From Ensifer sesbaniae (lineage in GTDB: Bacteria; Pseudomonadota; Alphaproteobacteria; Rhizobiales; Rhizobiaceae): DNA of 64,000 bases. The notes under the pieces were generated by a model. It had not been told where the DNA came from. It saw only the letters and a list, made by a program, of their open reading frames with translations, and ran no database searches. Positions within the stretch are counted from its first letter, which is position 1, and every line of letters begins with the position of its first letter. Made by a program: the position numbers and the translations under genes. Location of the stretch: NCBI RefSeq assembly GCF_013283665.1, contig NZ_JABEKU010000005.1:1-64000 (forward strand). The letters run 5' to 3'. This document shows, piece by piece, positions 11,250-57,846 of this stretch.

Positions 11250-11950
11250 TCACAGGTGTTGCATGCCGCGACGATTGAGCGAGACCGCGTAGACGCTGGT
11301 TGTTGCGGTGATGAAGAGTTGATGCTTTGCCCGCCCTCCGAAGCAGAGATTGGAAACAAGTTCAGGGACAAGAATTTTGCCCATCAGATGACCATCGGGC
11401 GCGATGCAATGCACGCCGTCGGCCGCCGAGGACCATAGGTTACCGTCGCTGTCCATCCGAAAGCCGTCGGCGCAGCCAGGATTGATGGCGTGGAAGACCT
11501 CTCCGCCGGACAACCTGCCGTCCGACCCGACGTCGAAGACACGAATATGCTGCGGGTCCGAGTGGAACATCCGCCCGTATCGGCCACATAAAGTCGCGTC
11601 TCGTCAGCGCTGAAGGCCAGTCCGTTCGGGCAGTGCATATCGGTCACGACCGGCTCGATGTGACCTGCCGGGTCGACGCGATAGACGCAACAAGGCAGCT
11701 CCTGCTCTGAGCGATAGCCCTCGTAGTCGGTCATGATCTCATAGTGCGGATCGGAAAACCATAGCGAGCCATCGGATCTGACGACCACATCGTTGGGCGA
11801 GTTCAGCCGCTTGCCCTGAAAGCTGTCGGCAATGACGGTGATCGACCCGTCGAGCTCCGTCCGGGTGACCCGTCTCGTGCCATGTTCACAGGTCACCAGT
11901 CTCCCCTGTCGATCCCGTGTGTTGCCATTGGCGAAGTTCGACGGCTCGTT
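11250..11950 (-). pseudogene. SMP-30/gluconolactonase family protein, frameshifted and truncated
   Basis: Two overlapping reading frames together spell most of a SMP-30/gluconolactonase-type beta-propeller lactonase. The upstream part has SNFANGNTRDRQGRLVTCEH, RLNSPNDVVVRSDGSLWFSD and HCPNGLAFSADETRLYVAD; the downstream part (11250-11570) has INPGCADGFRMDSDGNLW. A frameshift lies near 11560-11600. The N-terminal ~50 residues are missing: the sequence breaks near 11950, where a dehydrogenase fragment in the opposite orientation begins. Such lactonases hydrolyse sugar lactones, which fits the neighbouring sugar-acid genes. Confidence 0.8.
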
Positions 11951-17781: not shown

Positions 17782-18289
17782 GATAGGCCCTCATCTAATC
17801 GTTAGCCGCAGTCGATAGCCCACTCTCAGTTCGGCACAAGCTCGTTCGACGGATGTGAGCGAATTGGTACCGCTGGGGGAGCAGTCGGCGCAGCGTTTTG
17901 ATTCCGTCACCGGCGCAACCTCCAACAATCCTTTAAGTCTGTAGCCACTTCACACTCGCTCCAAGGTCGATCACCGGTGCGTAGATCAAGACAGCAAATT
18001 TCGTGCCAAGCAAAGGCGCTATGCGCATCAACGTTTAGCTCCAGCCACTGTCGATCTGCCGTGTCGGCACCGACCATGAAGACGACGCATCCGACAATTA
18101 CGCGCTTTGTAAGCTGACGCTTGTTTCGCCAAGCCGCCGTGTTGGGCCCAGCCTTCTCCCCTCTGCAGCGCGACAAACAGGTGAGACGCGCATTGCCTCG
18201 TCGAAACTGTTCCTGAATATTCAACCGTTGCCTCACATAATTTGCTCCCTGCCGAGGGGATGACCAGGGGCTACTATGGGACGGCTGAG

Positions 18290-20748: not shown

Positions 20749-21166
20749 TCAACTTGCACAGAAGAGCTCAAGTCCGTCATTGTTCGGTAGGCGCACGGCG
20801 CTGTCGTGCGGAAGGCCGTTCTTGCCAAAGTTTGCCATCAACATAGGACCTCGGGAACGTAAAACCTCAAGCATCTTATCGTAGTTGCACCCCGGTTGTA
20901 CGTGTCGGCCACACTTCAAAACCCGGCACGGCGATCTTCTCTGCGTGGACCGACCTGTTCTCGAAAATTTGGCGGTCACAGAGCTGAGCGTGCATCTCGA
21001 CCAGGTCGTCACTCTTCACGAGCCCCGTGCGCGGCTTGTTACGAGCGTTCACGTCCCAGCCTAATAAGATTGCATAACGCATCGCGTGGAACTCTGCGGT
21101 CTCGACAGCCTGCTGATGAAGGCTGCTCCCGCGCCGCCATCTCGTGTTAGCCATAGGGGTTTTCAC
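20749..21166 (-). pseudogene. Hypothetical protein downstream of the peptide gene, frameshifted
   Basis: Frame one (21166-20876) reads MANTRWRRGSSLHQQAVETA and ends GFEVWPTRTTG; a second frame then reads YDKMLEVLRSRGPMLMANFG and PHDSAVRLPNNDG to 20749. Joined by one frameshift near 20895 they give a ~135-residue protein. The LRSRGPMLMANFGKNGLPHD stretch loosely recalls the C-terminal His region of C39/papain-like peptidases, but I see no convincing N-terminal Cys motif, so this is weak. It lies just downstream of the candidate RiPP precursor on the same strand. Confidence 0.4.
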
Positions 21167-21174
21167 CCCCTATG
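21152..21174. repeat. Hairpin between peptide gene and next frame
   Basis: CATAGGGG (21152-21159) pairs with CCCCTATG (21167-21174) across a 7-base loop. On the minus strand it lies 20 bases after the peptide gene's stop and covers the ribosome-binding region of the downstream frame, so it could reduce read-through or translation. Confidence 0.6.
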
Positions 21175-21193: not shown

Positions 21194-21361
21194 TCAGGGT
21201 AGCTTAGGAGGCAAAGGGAATGGGAAGGGGAGGGGGTGGAACGGTACCATAAATGAGTCCCCGCATCCTCCTAAAGATGAGCCCTCGAATCCTCCTGAAG
21301 TTGTAGATGCTTCTTCGGAAGTCAATTCGGTCACGCCAGAGGCTGTCACTTTCGTCTTCAT
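21194..21361 (-). CDS. Candidate double-glycine-leader RiPP precursor peptide
   Basis: A 55-residue peptide. Residues 1-24 (MKTKVTASGV...TTSGG) have the form of a double-glycine leader: ELTSEEAS precedes GG at 23-24, like the EL-x-EE-...-GG leaders of C39-processed bacteriocins and related RiPPs. The predicted core, 31 residues, has GSSLGGCGDS with one Cys and then a Pro/Phe/Leu-rich tail MVPFHPLPFPFPLPPKLP. The ATG at 21361 follows AAAAAGGAG by six bases; the longer TTG start at 21385 would overlap that ribosome-binding site. No maturation enzyme or exporter is intact nearby. Function is inferred, not shown. Confidence 0.6.
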   Translation of the reverse strand: MKTKVTASGVTELTSEEASTTSGGFEGSSLGGCGDSFMVPFHPLPFPFPLPPKLP

Positions 21362-21699
21362 CGTCGTCTCCTTTTTAGCGCTCAAACCGTCAGTCGATGA
21401 TCACGAGAGACACTCAAGAAGTGTGCCAGCTGCCCTGGAAAAGCCGTTCCTGCATGAACTTCAATGGCTTCAATGAAAACACGGCGACACCTCGCCGAAC
21501 AGCGCCGTGTCGCGGCCTAGACAAACCCGACAGTTTTGAGGCAGCGCAAGTGACGCCGAGAGCTCGAGGCGATTAGATGGGATATTCGGCTTTGCGTCTC
21601 AGCGTTGACCATGGTGGATTGCGGTGCTGCGCTTCTGGCTGATGGTAAAACGAGGTCATGTCTTTCAACAGCCTCAAACATCAAAGGGAGAAGCGCAGC

Positions 21700-24639: not shown

Positions 24640-26015
24640 TTAAGTGCAAGGGCGAGAAGGGCCTCGTGCAGCGGCCGCCACCGAGAGCCAATCGATTTGA
24701 CGGAATAGGCTTTGCCACCCGCTTCCGACATACGGTTCGATATCAATATGGCGCGGTGTGCGTTTTTGAAAGCAGGCCCTTAACTGGGCATAACTCTTCG
24801 GCAACTCGGCCGAAGTTAGTTCTCGCCAGAACGGCGTATCATTTCTGCCACCATCATAGTGCAGCCGGAGGTAATCGCGGACGCCCGTCCAGGATCGTAC
24901 GTTCGCGCTGCTGAAGGCTTCGATCGCATGAGCGGGCACGATTCCGCCTCCGCTGGCGAGAATACGCTCCAAATTCCTCAACTGCTCGAAGGTATGGGCG
25001 GCAAGCGCAGCCCCCAGGGGCTCGACGAATCCGGAAGCCGTTCCGAGCGCCACCACATTGTTGACCCAGGCAGTTTCAAAATAGCCTTGATCGAACGAAA
25101 GCTCGTGCCTTGGCTGGACATGGTATCCAAAGCGGTGCTGGACCTCCGCCATCATCATCGCATCGTCGGCATGTCTGCTACTGAACACATAGCCGGCCCT
25201 GGTGGCGCGATTCAATGGAATCTCCCAGATCCATCCGGCCGTCATGGCGGTGGAACGGGTCAGGGTTCGAAGCGAAGACCCTGTCGGCTGAAGATCAAAG
25301 GTTATTGCGCGGTCCGTTGGCAATACACTTCCGAATGTACGCCAACCGGGTCTAAAGGCACTGCCGAGACCCATCCGGGCCAGCCCTGAGGCGTCGACGG
25401 CGAAGTCGACCTCGAGTTGCGCTCCTTCGAGCTGCAAGGCGCACACATGGCCCCGGTTATCAAGCCTCATCTCACAACAGCGCTGTCCCGGGAAGTGATC
25501 CCATGTGCCAGGCCAACCCGCTTCAAGTACCGCTCGAAGCAGGCATCATCAAAATGGTAGGACGGGTAGAGACCGGACTCGCCGGTCGCCATCAACTCGT
25601 CGATCTCCTGCTGCGATGCATTCCTGGCAATCGCCTCAAACCCCGGGATGCACGTGTGAAGGCACTCCCCCGCCGCGATCCTCGCGGACAGCAGAGGAAA
25701 GAAGCCATCGACGTGATATTCGATCTCCGGAATACCTAGCCCGCCGAACAGGTGGTAGTAGCGATCCGGAACTCCTCCACCAGTCCAATTCTCATAGAGC
25801 ACACCATACTTGTATGTGGCACCGGCTTCACCGGTAAAGACGTCCAAGTCGAGATCATTGCGACACAACGTATCAATCAGGTTGAGCGAGCCCCCCTCCC
25901 CGAGACCAAGTGGAAATTGCACTGGAGCCTCTATGACCGTCACATCCAGATCGGGATCAAAAACACGGGACAACTCGATCGCCACAAGCCCACAACGCCC
26001 CCGCCGATGATTCCT
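24640..26015 (-). pseudogene. Flavin-dependent tryptophan-halogenase-like protein, frameshifted
   Basis: Three frames together give a ~455-residue FAD-dependent halogenase. The dinucleotide motif RIGIIGGGVVGL lies at about 25985-26013; a shift then leads into AIELSRVFDPDLDVTVIEAP and LGLGEGGSLNLIDTL (family motif GxGEA-like) and YKYGVLYENWTGGG. A second break near 25470-25500 leads to a frame (25470-24640) with VDASGLARMGLGSAF and GWIWEIPLNRAT, which matches the W-x-W-x-I-P motif diagnostic of FADH2-dependent halogenases, and ASGFVEPLGA. The halogenating Lys of the family was not located with certainty. With two breaks it is presumably inactive. It lies on the same strand as the peptide gene 3.3 kb away, with mobile elements between. 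Confidence 0.8.
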
Positions 26016-27964: not shown

Positions 27965-28269
27965 CGTAAGGTCTCCAACGCAGGCTCTCTCGGCAGCGGC
28001 CGAACGTGGAATGTCTTCCAAGTCGGACACGATCTCATCCGTCACAGCCGTCTCGTCCGCCCGCATCTCGGTTTTTGTTATTCAGCCTATCGGGGGCGGT
28101 CTGCTGATCATCGGTCCGCCATTGCAAAAATGTGCCGAGGCTTTTTCGAGCCTCGCCCTTTGAGACGGTCGCGGCAGCAGGACCGGTGGGGCATGGGGAG
28201 GGAGTGGCCCCGCTGCCTGACGTCGCCCCCCCGGGAGAACGGGAGGGCCGAGTTTTGTCATCGCCAAGG

Positions 28270-28480
28270 TCGACCATCAACCGTGCCACTTCGGGATACC
28301 CATGGATCACAGTGATCGCATTGTCGACCAGTTTCGCAAAGGCCGCCGGCGAGCTTCCCAAGCGTCTCGAAGCCCAGGGCGGACGTCGGTGAATACGACC
28401 AGGTCCGGGCATCCCGAATCCCTCGTGACCCCTCGCCATAGTCCGCGGAGCCACCGGCCGGTGCGCGCGTCGCACGCGCG
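28270..28480 (-). pseudogene. DUF269 (NifX-associated) C-terminal remnant
   Basis: In one frame, HEGFG is followed, after divergent sequence, by AFAKLVDNAITVIHGYPEVA, matching EGFGRVLL and [20 protein letters not shown] of the intact gene at 31706-32194. Reading frames are broken. The bases after it (to about 28190) also resemble those following the intact copy. Confidence 0.72.
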
Positions 28481-28527
28481 ACGGCGATGTGGAAACGATC
28501 GGAGCCGCTGACAAACGGGGTCGTATG

Positions 28528-28713
28528 GGCGCTGCCGCGCAGTCCCGCGCCTTCGAGTTCAGGATAAGGCGTCTGAAATCGATCCTCCTGTCGCCGCTGA
28601 CGATATGCATGTTTGGTCCGAGACCGATAAGGGAGGTGAGCATACTTGCGCGTGGCGGCGAACGTGCCCATGCGCTCCTTGCAGCAGCATGCGATCTGAC
28701 ACAGACCTGCCAT
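28528..28713 (-). pseudogene. nifH remnant (5' part)
   Basis: Starts MAGLCQIACC, compared with [14 protein letters not shown] in nifH at 39776. A second frame then spells LTSLIGLGPNMHIVSGDRR and [11 protein letters not shown], the counterparts of [19 protein letters not shown] and [11 protein letters not shown]. The P-loop is destroyed. About 60 codons of nifH survive, fused to a DUF269 remnant. Its promoter region is much better preserved than the gene. Confidence 0.85.
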
Positions 28714-28775: not shown

Positions 28776-28790
28776 TCAAGACTTGTGCCA
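28776..28790 (-). promoter_or_regulatory. Sigma-54 promoter of the nifH remnant
   Basis: On the minus strand TGGCACAAGTCTTGA: a -24 TGGCAC and a -12 TTG with GA where GC is usual. It lies 62 bases before the remnant's ATG, as does the nifH promoter relative to nifH. It may still transcribe fdxB downstream. Confidence 0.65.
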
Positions 28791-28875: not shown

Positions 28876-28891
28876 TGTCGCTGAACCGACA
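28876..28891. promoter_or_regulatory. NifA upstream activator sequence
   Basis: TGTCGCTGAACCGACA, an exact TGT-N10-ACA site, 86 bases upstream of the remnant nifH promoter. It differs at two positions from the site in front of nifH (TGTCGCGGAACCGACA). Confidence 0.85.
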
Positions 28892-38882: not shown

Positions 38883-39902
<1,020 letters not shown>

Positions 39903-39969: not shown

Positions 39970-39985
39970 TGTCGCGGAACCGACA
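39970..39985. promoter_or_regulatory. NifA upstream activator sequence for nifH
   Basis: TGTCGCGGAACCGACA, an exact TGT-N10-ACA, about 90 bases upstream of the -24/-12 element. The rest of the 595-base gap up to 40371 holds no gene I can support. Confidence 0.9.
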
Positions 39986-56169: not shown

Positions 56170-57846
56170 ATGCTGCACATTGGGCTCAATGAGGGTATGA
56201 CTGAACGATCCGCTCAAACCATGCACAAACCGGATTTCTGGGGCAGCGGTATCTATCGGATATCGAAAGTCTTGATTGGTCCAGCCAGTCTTGAGACCAA
56301 GCTTGCCAATGTCATTAAGGCCCTCTCAGCAATTCTGCCAATGCGGCGCGGCGCAATCGTCGTTCTGAATGCTGGAGGAGCGCCCGAGATGGTTGCAACG
56401 CTCGGCGTAGAGCAAGCATCTCAAGGCGCTCGGAGCATTCCGGCGAAGGCTGCAATAGATAGAATCGTCGCAAAAGGTGCGCCGCTGGTCGTACCGGACA
56501 CTTGCAAGTCGGACCTGTTCCAGGCTGAGCTCCAAACCAGTTCGAACGCCACCGGCCCGACCACCTTCGTTGGCGTCCCGATGAAGGTGGATCAAGAAAC
56601 GCTTGGAACACTATGGCTCGACCGCGCCAAGGATGCCGGCACGAGGATACAATTTGAGGAAGAGGTGCGTTTTCTGTCCATGATTGCCAACCTTGCGGCC
56701 CGGGCCGTTCGGTTGGATCGCCACCAGCGCGGCGATGGTCAGCCAATCGTGGGCGAGGAAGGAGCCCGCAACACTAGTTCAGGCGAGAAGGAACTCCCCG
56801 AACCTGCCCCACAACGCCCCACAAAAATCGATTGGATCGTCGGGGAAAGCCCTGCGCTCAAACAAGTGGTCGAAAGCATCAAAGTCGTTGCAACAACAAA
56901 TTCTGCAGTGCTTCTCAGGGGCGAAAGCGGCACGGGCAAGGAGTTCTTTGCAAAGGCCATCCACGAGCTTTCACCTCGGAGAAAGAAGCCCTTCGTGAAA
57001 TTGAACTGCGCCGCACTGTCTGCGGGCGTCCTGGAATCGGAACTGTTTGGACATGAAAAGGGCGCCTTTACTGGGGCCATCTCTCAGCGCGCGGGTCGTT
57101 TCGAATTGGCGCACGGTGGAACCCTGCTGCTCGATGAGATCGGCGAGATTTCGCCGGCCTTTCAAGCGAAACTGTTGCGCGTCCTGCAGGAGGGTGAGCT
57201 TGAGCGAGTCGGAGGCACAAAAACACTCAAGGTGGACGTTCGACTCATATGCGCCACGAACAAGGATCTAGAGGCGGCAGTCGCGGATGGGGAGTTCAGG
57301 GCCGACCTCTACTACCGCATCAATGTGGTGCCGCTATTTTTGCCGCCTCTCAGAGAGCGAAATGGGGATATTCCACGCCTTGCGAGGGTTTTCCTCGACC
57401 GATTCAACCGGGAAAATAATCGGGACCTCGCATTCACACCGGCTGCTCTCGAGTTCTTGTCAAAATGCAACTTTCCCGGCAACGTCCGAGAGCTTGAAAA
57501 TTGCGTCCGGAGAACCGCCACTCTCGCGCGTTCGGGGACGATCGTTCCATCAGATTTCTCCTGCCAGAAGGACCAGTGCCTTTCTTCAATGCTCTGGAAA
57601 GGCGCTGACCGTCCACTTGCGGGCAATACAGTCAGTGGGTCGATCGAAGCACCGGTCAGCCTTGGTTACTCCAACGGACCGGCCGGCCTAACGATGGCAC
57701 CACATCTAACGGACCGCGAGCTGCTAATCAGTGCCATGGAGAAGGCCGGCTGGGTTCAGGCAAAGGCAGCTCGGATCCTCGGCCTCACACCGCGGCAAGT
57801 CGGCTATGCTTTACGTCGCCATCGTATACAGGTGAAGAAGATCTAA
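56170..57846 (+). CDS. nifA: Nitrogen fixation activator NifA (oxygen-responsive)
   Basis: A 558-residue enhancer-binding protein that activates sigma-54 promoters of nif/fix genes. GAF domain at about 30-185; AAA+ domain with Walker A GESGTGKE (near 251), the sigma-54-contacting GAFTGA (near 298) and Walker B GTLLLDEIGEI; Fis-type HTH at the C-terminus (QAKAARILGLTPRQVGYALR). Between AAA+ and HTH are Cys 433, 445, 465 and 470 (C-x11-C-x19-C-x4-C), the motif of rhizobial NifA that makes it directly oxygen sensitive. Start could instead be an internal Met (residues 10 or 18). Confidence 0.97.
   Translation: MLHIGLNEGMTERSAQTMHKPDFWGSGIYRISKVLIGPASLETKLANVIKALSAILPMRRGAIVVLNAGGAPEMVATLGVEQASQGARSIPAKAAIDRIVAKGAPLVVPDTCKSDLFQAELQTSSNATGPTTFVGVPMKVDQETLGTLWLDRAKDAGTRIQFEEEVRFLSMIANLAARAVRLDRHQRGDGQPIVGEEGARNTSSGEKELPEPAPQRPTKIDWIVGESPALKQVVESIKVVATTNSAVLLRGESGTGKEFFAKAIHELSPRRKKPFVKLNCAALSAGVLESELFGHEKGAFTGAISQRAGRFELAHGGTLLLDEIGEISPAFQAKLLRVLQEGELERVGGTKTLKVDVRLICATNKDLEAAVADGEFRADLYYRINVVPLFLPPLRERNGDIPRLARVFLDRFNRENNRDLAFTPAALEFLSKCNFPGNVRELENCVRRTATLARSGTIVPSDFSCQKDQCLSSMLWKGADRPLAGNTVSGSIEAPVSLGYSNGPAGLTMAPHLTDRELLISAMEKAGWVQAKAARILGLTPRQVGYALRRHRIQVKKI

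Follow-up and report, generated by a model that had tools for sequence, protein, structure and literature searches.

What is a gene of only 55 codons doing in the middle of a nitrogen-fixation region, to which family does its product belong, and is this copy still at work? The question is posed by a 64,000-nucleotide stretch of the Ensifer sesbaniae genome, referred to here as the window, in which nifH, nifD, nifA, nifB and nifS score above their NCBIfam cut-offs (nifQ, nifKEN and the fix genes were read by eye only, and the nifQ candidate matched no NCBIfam model at E 1e-20). The gene is encoded on the minus strand, from 21361 to 21194, and translates to MKTKVTASGVTELTSEEASTTSGGFEGSSLGGCGDSFMVPFHPLPFPFPLPPKLP; the plus-strand frame over the same positions is crowded with stops, leaving the minus strand as the coding one. 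A sequence-only reading of this locus had given the same coordinates and a 55-residue product with an ELTSEEAS stretch, a GG at residues 23–24 and a 31-residue core with one cysteine, all of which are present in the translation. The leader (residues 1–24, positions 21290..21361, minus strand), delimited in an alignment of 21 leaders, is followed by the Pro/Phe-rich core FEGSSLGGCGDSFMVPFHPLPFPFPLPPKLP (21197..21289, minus strand), and an imperfect 24-bp direct repeat, matching at 19 of 24 positions when counted by hand, runs across the start of the core. A ribosome-binding site, AAAAAGGAG, is located at 21368..21376 (minus strand), six nucleotides before the ATG, as had been proposed. Beyond the stop codon follow a hairpin with an 8-bp stem (21152..21174, minus strand), which is a weak terminator on the minus strand and was called by the scanner on the plus strand only, a small hypothetical ORF without a Pfam match (20876..21166, minus strand), and a PhaC-type polymerase gene. 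The same small ORF adjoins the peptide gene in S. psoraleae and also, split, in Ensifer sp. MPMI2T. No model in Pfam or NCBIfam matched the window peptide, including the class IIb bacteriocin model TIGR03949 (cut-off 21.5 bits).

Comparison of sequences indicates that the window gene is a real gene and a member of a family, lifted above chance by its relatives, by another copy of the leader elsewhere in its genome and by the constraint on the leader codons. A scan of GTDB contigs returned four loci (L001–L003 among them), with a 96% identical peptide in Ensifer sp. MPMI2T (L001) and relatives of the leader in S. psoraleae and two Bradyrhizobium species, and the second copy in the window's own genome is located on contig C4 (147314–147427, E 2.2e-5). 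Against profile A2, built from the 21 aligned leaders, the window leader scores 51.3 bits with its GG at residues 23–24 and falls within the family; it is itself one row of that alignment, of which the GTDB scan and the C4 copy are independent, and it departs from the consensus at six of 24 positions. With a dN/dS of about 0.21 (990 pairs from 45 family sequences) the leader codons of the family are, by this measure, under purifying selection. The window and MPMI2T genes differ by two non-synonymous and no synonymous changes, and no constraint is visible in this pair.

The leader is rare. With profile A1 it was detected in one of 16 genomes of its own genus and in at least four of 397 genomes (at least two of 142 genera) of an order-wide sample, and with A2 in three of 398 genomes (two of 213 genera) of a phylum-wide sample, the window's genome being one match in each of the two larger samples. 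The A2 profile also identified it in 32 of 265 Bradyrhizobium genomes (E ≤ 0.01, with carriers G524 and G653 resting on weak partial matches at E 0.0065 and 0.0023) and in 30 of 148 genomes of a second genus, g2, which is probably Rhizobium, since its 15 commonest-type genomes share the peptide of R. etli CIAT 652. The table of profile matches kept those of at least 18 bits, and candidates scored per genome were capped at four for the Bradyrhizobium exporter discussed below, 11 for Bradyrhizobium NodA and 18 for the leader in the order sample, so that absences in these counts are not certain. Among the papers turned up by the literature searches (subscription papers and preprints lying outside the scope) no title, abstract or passage describes the peptide family, and passages of PMC6515984, PMC4842269, PMC6421345, PMC4085339 and PMC3538637 make no mention of it. 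In the annotated records that were opened its precursors are unannotated or labeled "hypothetical", save WP_082912367.1 of S. americanum and S. fredii. Among plasmid records, tblastn with the window peptide gave no match, but at the DNA level the window gene together with its promoter matched 22 of 72,556 records, all from rhizobial genera.

The company kept by these leaders points to their route of export. The L003 locus of Bradyrhizobium centrolobii contains several leader genes, followed by a HlyD gene and then by the gene of an ABC transporter whose N-terminal part is a C39 peptidase, and loci of Mesorhizobium, Sinorhizobium, Microvirga, Bradyrhizobium and Rhizobium likewise have their leader genes 5′ of HlyD and exporter. 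The double-glycine leader proposed from the sequence alone is thereby borne out, homologues with a conserved leader and co-occurring C39 and HlyD processing genes both having been found. This dedicated exporter is unlike others of the same genomes, the next best being about 30% identical. A tblastn search with the L003 exporter (E ≤ 1e-175) gave 82 of 72,556 plasmid records, 77 of them rhizobial (Rhizobium 45, Bradyrhizobium 20, Sinorhizobium 7, Mesorhizobium 4, Microvirga 1) and five from genera of Bacteroidota (Phocaeicola 2, Aureibacter 1, Persicobacter 1, Bacteroides 1). Identity is 80–90% in 72 records, 60–80% in five and below 60% in another five; the latter are taken as the Bacteroidota records, since among the 60 matches listed all rhizobial exporters reach at least 77% and four Bacteroidota exporters 52.7–54.7%. 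Bacteroidota plasmids (the four listed; L093) represent the nearest non-rhizobial relatives of the exporter in this plasmid search, hinting at an old transfer between phyla.

Exporter and leader also travel together within a genus. At least 20 of 265 Bradyrhizobium genomes possess the exporter, and 19 of these also carry the leader, as against 13 of the 245 exporter-less genomes; in the twentieth (G575) a partial exporter lies at a contig end. All 19 encode, as judged by eye, at least one peptide with a GG and a core, while among 11 exporter-less carriers that were fetched only three (G476, G505, G633) retain a GG and a core of at least ten residues, and the precursors apparently degenerate in genomes without the exporter. 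An exporter tree of 21 of the 22 intended rows (G560 was left out) has seven of its 18 inner branches open, so that transfer of the exporter along with symbiosis genes is claimed only as likely. Neighboring ORFs of at least 60 aa were compared for 22 chosen exporter loci in five genera. Besides the exporter (22 loci), HlyD (19) and frames overlapping both, the one family shared by at least three genera was a presumed transposase; shared by two genera were further mobile-element genes, a glmS-like gene (two loci) and a prolyl-oligopeptidase-type gene (two loci).

More informative than the class of the peptide is the manner in which its gene appears to be regulated, and this regulatory pattern is the stronger finding of the two. 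The window gene is preceded by a sigma-54 element of the −24/−12 type, TGGCACACTTCTTGA, with A at −12 (21414..21428, minus strand, within 40–150 bp upstream), and about 100 bp further by a NifA-type upstream activator sequence (UAS) of the form TGT-N10-ACA, TGTCTAGGCCGCGACA on the gene strand (21508..21523, minus strand), which starts 95 bp upstream of the start of the −24/−12 element. The same layout is found upstream of the window's nifH (38883..39776, minus strand, NCBIfam), used here as a yardstick, with its UAS at 39970–39985 and its −24/−12 element at 39864–39878 (TGGCACGGGTCTTGT, T at −12). Within the window TGGCACNNNNNTTGM occurs seven times, as against 0.33 expected, and TGTCN8GACA seven times as against 0.88; tolerating one mismatch makes the promoter pattern far less distinctive (22 occurrences vs 14.7 expected). 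The presumed activator gene of the peptide promoter is the window's nifA (56170..57846, plus strand; TIGR01817, 789 bits). An IS110-type transposase gene starts at 21658, upstream of the peptide gene, and the window and MPMI2T sequences part, by eye, upstream of the activator site, leaving the promoter untouched. Two further elements of this kind were seen in the window: an ORF at 28035–28643 (minus strand) that includes a NifH-like stretch, perhaps a nifH remnant as judged by eye, has a nif-type promoter (UAS 28876–28891, −24/−12 element 28776–28790), and a sigma-54-like element, TGGCACGAAATTTGC, at 17994–18008 (minus strand) is located upstream of the gene for a DUF3141 protein adjoining PhaC.

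Across the family, the promoter set was limited to distinct peptides scoring 24 bits or more whose genes had 150 bp or more of sequence upstream, 69 in all; these genes are related, so the counts are not independent, and the random positions used for comparison were drawn from the same loci and may include upstream regions of leaders. A −24/−12 element matching at nine or more of 11 positions, 40–150 bp upstream, was present in 55 of the 69 genes, compared with 173 of 5000 random positions, and at ten or more positions in 41 of 69 compared with 66 of 5000. Several of the genes devoid of a promoter are the second of a tandem pair (L016, L017, L060, L061, L065). The TGT-N10-ACA motif lies within 260 bp of 32 of the 69 genes (6.7% of random positions), in three cases only at the ribosome site, leaving 29 well placed; of these 29, all 60–160 bp upstream of the promoter, 28 start 90–111 bp from it. 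Positions −13/−12 of the 55 promoters read GA in 47, GC in seven and GT in one. According to passages of PMC3538637, an A at −12 is found in nifH of R. etli, R. leguminosarum and M. loti and in fdxN of B. japonicum, and in only nine of 186 Rhizobiales sigma-54 promoters. The family thus shares UAS, −24/−12 element and A at −12 with the NifA-RpoN regulon (nifH, fdxN), among whose members, in the passages of the literature at hand, no secreted peptide system is described. From the promoter enrichment, the UAS spacing and the nifH-like layout we infer that the family genes are under NifA–sigma-54 control, and that they are apparently switched on together with nitrogen fixation.

A link to symbiosis emerges also from the distribution of NodA, which in the window's genome is encoded on contig C4. 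NodA was detected in 65 of 148 g2 genomes, accompanying all 30 leader carriers and 35 of 118 non-carriers (Fisher p 1.5e-13), and in at least 163 of 265 Bradyrhizobium genomes at E ≤ 1e-3. There 139 matches were counted as strong and 24 weak ones (E above 1e-7) taken as NodA-negative, carrier G417 being among them; 31 of 32 carriers have NodA, as opposed to at least 108 of 233 non-carriers (p 6e-9). Both p values ignore relatedness: scores are equal or almost equal in 22 of the 30 g2 carriers, and all 15 genomes fetched from among these 22 encode one identical peptide, that of R. etli CIAT 652. Four Bradyrhizobium plasmids have NodA missing from the exporter-bearing record. G417 (L087) combines a 61% identical exporter and a family peptide with no strong NodA match, and could possibly, at a guess, be a symbiont that nodulates without Nod factors.

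We are fairly confident in the explanation that the family represents NifA-driven, secreted peptides of rhizobia resembling class II microcins, of which the window copy would be an exporter-less remnant. In the sequence of events proposed for intact members, NifA bound about 100 bp upstream would activate sigma-54 polymerase at the nifH-like −24/−12 promoter, so that precursors would be made in the nodule as nitrogen fixation begins. The dedicated C39-HlyD exporter would then cut the leader after its GG, as may be predicted for a C39 peptidase acting on the window leader too, and release a mature core of roughly 17–40 residues into the nodule, where it would most likely act on competing bacteria. 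That the peptides do act on other bacteria in the nodule we regard as about evenly balanced. The alternative that their target is the plant, the cores being secreted by bacteroids into the symbiosome space and their Cys/Pro-rich class resembling plant signal peptides, is possible though in our estimate unlikely. Promoters of the nitrogen-fixation type and the NodA link would suit it, and no immunity gene recurs beside the rhizobial exporters (22 loci, ORFs of at least 60 aa), weakening the bacteriocin reading.

The cores themselves have a bearing on this choice. They could be compared for 56 of the 69 peptides, those with a GG and a core of 10–45 aa, counting as Pro-rich any with at least two prolines and under 62% hydrophobic residues and as hydrophobic all the rest, including the non-hydrophobic L039. 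By this division 37 of 56 belong to the hydrophobic group, mostly Gly/Ala-rich and often with an aromatic first residue, as in class II bacteriocins, which argues against a plant target, and 19 of 56 are Pro-rich and less hydrophobic. Setting aside the three Sinorhizobium copies (window, L001, L002) and the borderline L034, the remaining 15 Pro-rich cores are all from Bradyrhizobium; these soluble cores contain cysteine in 14 cases and two or more cysteines in ten, which would fit signaling to the plant. The window core, with eight prolines and its single cysteine, is a Pro-rich outlier that cannot be aligned with any of the other Pro-rich cores, the likeness being in composition alone. Also at odds with a plant target are the annotation of one family peptide, WP_082912367.1, as a class IIb bacteriocin and a gene annotated as a bacteriocin-type signal sequence adjoining a near non-rhizobial relative of the exporter. 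In R. etli CIAT 652 (L091 6642, plus strand) the family gene immediately preceding HlyD, absent among the annotated features listed, encodes an aromatic, cationic core of 17 residues, WYFWVYLFLRRYGHLFG.

Whether the window copy can still reach its target depends on its exporter. No C39 exporter and HlyD adjoin the window gene; the best match to the cognate exporter in this genome has 29% identity, and MPMI2T likewise has none. S. psoraleae has it at 86% identity, and identities of at least 82% were found in 13 of 15 genomes or records searched, ten of which had been fetched through the exporter. The sibling copies are decaying: in the S. psoraleae orthologue GE replaces GG and the core frame is shifted, and the C4 paralogue keeps leader and promoter while its core reads on into other sequence. 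With the cognate exporter missing and the siblings in this state the window copy is probably vestigial, a genuine but probably orphaned member that would be transcribed yet remain unexported, with leader, GG and promoter retained. One could instead suppose that it still works, being made in bacteroids and processed and exported in trans, as its ORF, GG, ribosome-binding site, UAS and −24/−12 element are all intact and the genome's single C39 match, located on contig C2, is a transporter with an adjacent HlyD-like gene (by eye). We think this rather improbable, given that the C2 transporter is only 26% identical to the cognate exporter and is served by double-glycine peptides of its own, worded unlike the window leader (MRELNELEIDMISGG... 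upstream, and ...EGVAGG...), on which grounds it was rejected as the cognate exporter, and given the decay of the sibling copies. The C2 system occupies L009:7665–11176 (minus strand), with small ORFs at 11742 and 11964 (both minus strand).

The sequence-only reading had likened the gene to a RiPP precursor, possibly the remnant of a locus whose halogenase or other enzyme would have acted on the Pro/Phe-rich core; its double-glycine leader has held, the RiPP part has not. A tryptophan halogenase pseudogene is indeed present on this strand, about 3.3 kb from the peptide gene (24643–25985, minus strand, PF04820 in both pieces, in two frames), as had been noted, and enzyme genes occur near some single family loci. 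In M. amorphae (L016) the first peptide gene comes about 660 bp after a run of genes whose products include a lysine/ornithine monooxygenase, a PhyH-type dioxygenase, a tRNA-synthetase-like protein and an aminotransferase; S. americanum and S. fredii have the gene of a histidine-specific methyltransferase near the locus, on the opposite strand. At single loci the peptides may thus be modified. However, the IS110-type transposase gene separates the peptide gene from the pseudogene, the halogenase pieces matched none of 96 family loci (many only about 3 kb long), and no modifying enzyme recurs between genera at the 22 exporter loci (ORFs of at least 60 aa), making a RiPP remnant very improbable and leading to its rejection. 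That the gene is a chance ORF with leader-like wording, as its mere 55 codons and the absence of a library match might suggest, has next to no probability in view of its relatives, its promoter and the coding constraint on the leader.

Class II microcins and other double-glycine bacteriocins are exported by C39-peptidase ABC transporters with a HlyD adaptor, and the rhizobial family has in common with class II microcins a short precursor, a leader ending in GG, a small core and adjacent HlyD and C39 ABC genes. It differs from them in its sigma-54/NifA-type promoter, its link with nodulation, the lack of a recurring immunity gene and the presence of a Cys/Pro-rich class of cores. Similarity to the lactobin A/cerein 7B family (TIGR03949) is partial: WP_082912367.1 of S. 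americanum and S. fredii is so named in its record, two peptides of L003 reach 18 and 14.4 bits where 21.5 are required, and none of three relatives passes. On plasmid pBACSA02 of Phocaeicola salanitronis a 53.7% identical exporter is found with genes for a bacteriocin-type signal sequence, HlyD and C39, and is flanked by CAAX endopeptidase-family and TolC genes, neither of which recurs at the rhizobial loci.

Little is known to us of what bacteroids secrete after the onset of fixation. The broader proposition is that at least five genera of symbionts share a peptide secretion system wired to nitrogen fixation, in which a dedicated C39-HlyD exporter on symbiosis plasmids or islands would release fast-diversifying double-glycine cores, some of them hydrophobic helices and others soluble and Cys/Pro-rich, from bacteroids into the nodule; this could, in our judgment, equally well prove right or wrong. 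If true, such a shared system would match, from the bacterial side, the nodule peptides that the plant itself makes, and a NifA-controlled exporter across unrelated rhizobia would point either to competition within the nodule or to bacterial peptide signals addressed to the plant. Exporter and peptide lie side by side in bean symbionts, for instance on pB of R. etli CIAT 652 and pSfreNXT3b of S. fredii NXT3, where both readings are testable. An RTX calcium-binding protein, perhaps another exported protein, is encoded 3′ of the exporter in S. americanum (L017 10468–11295, plus strand) and S. fredii (L092 8472–9299, plus strand).
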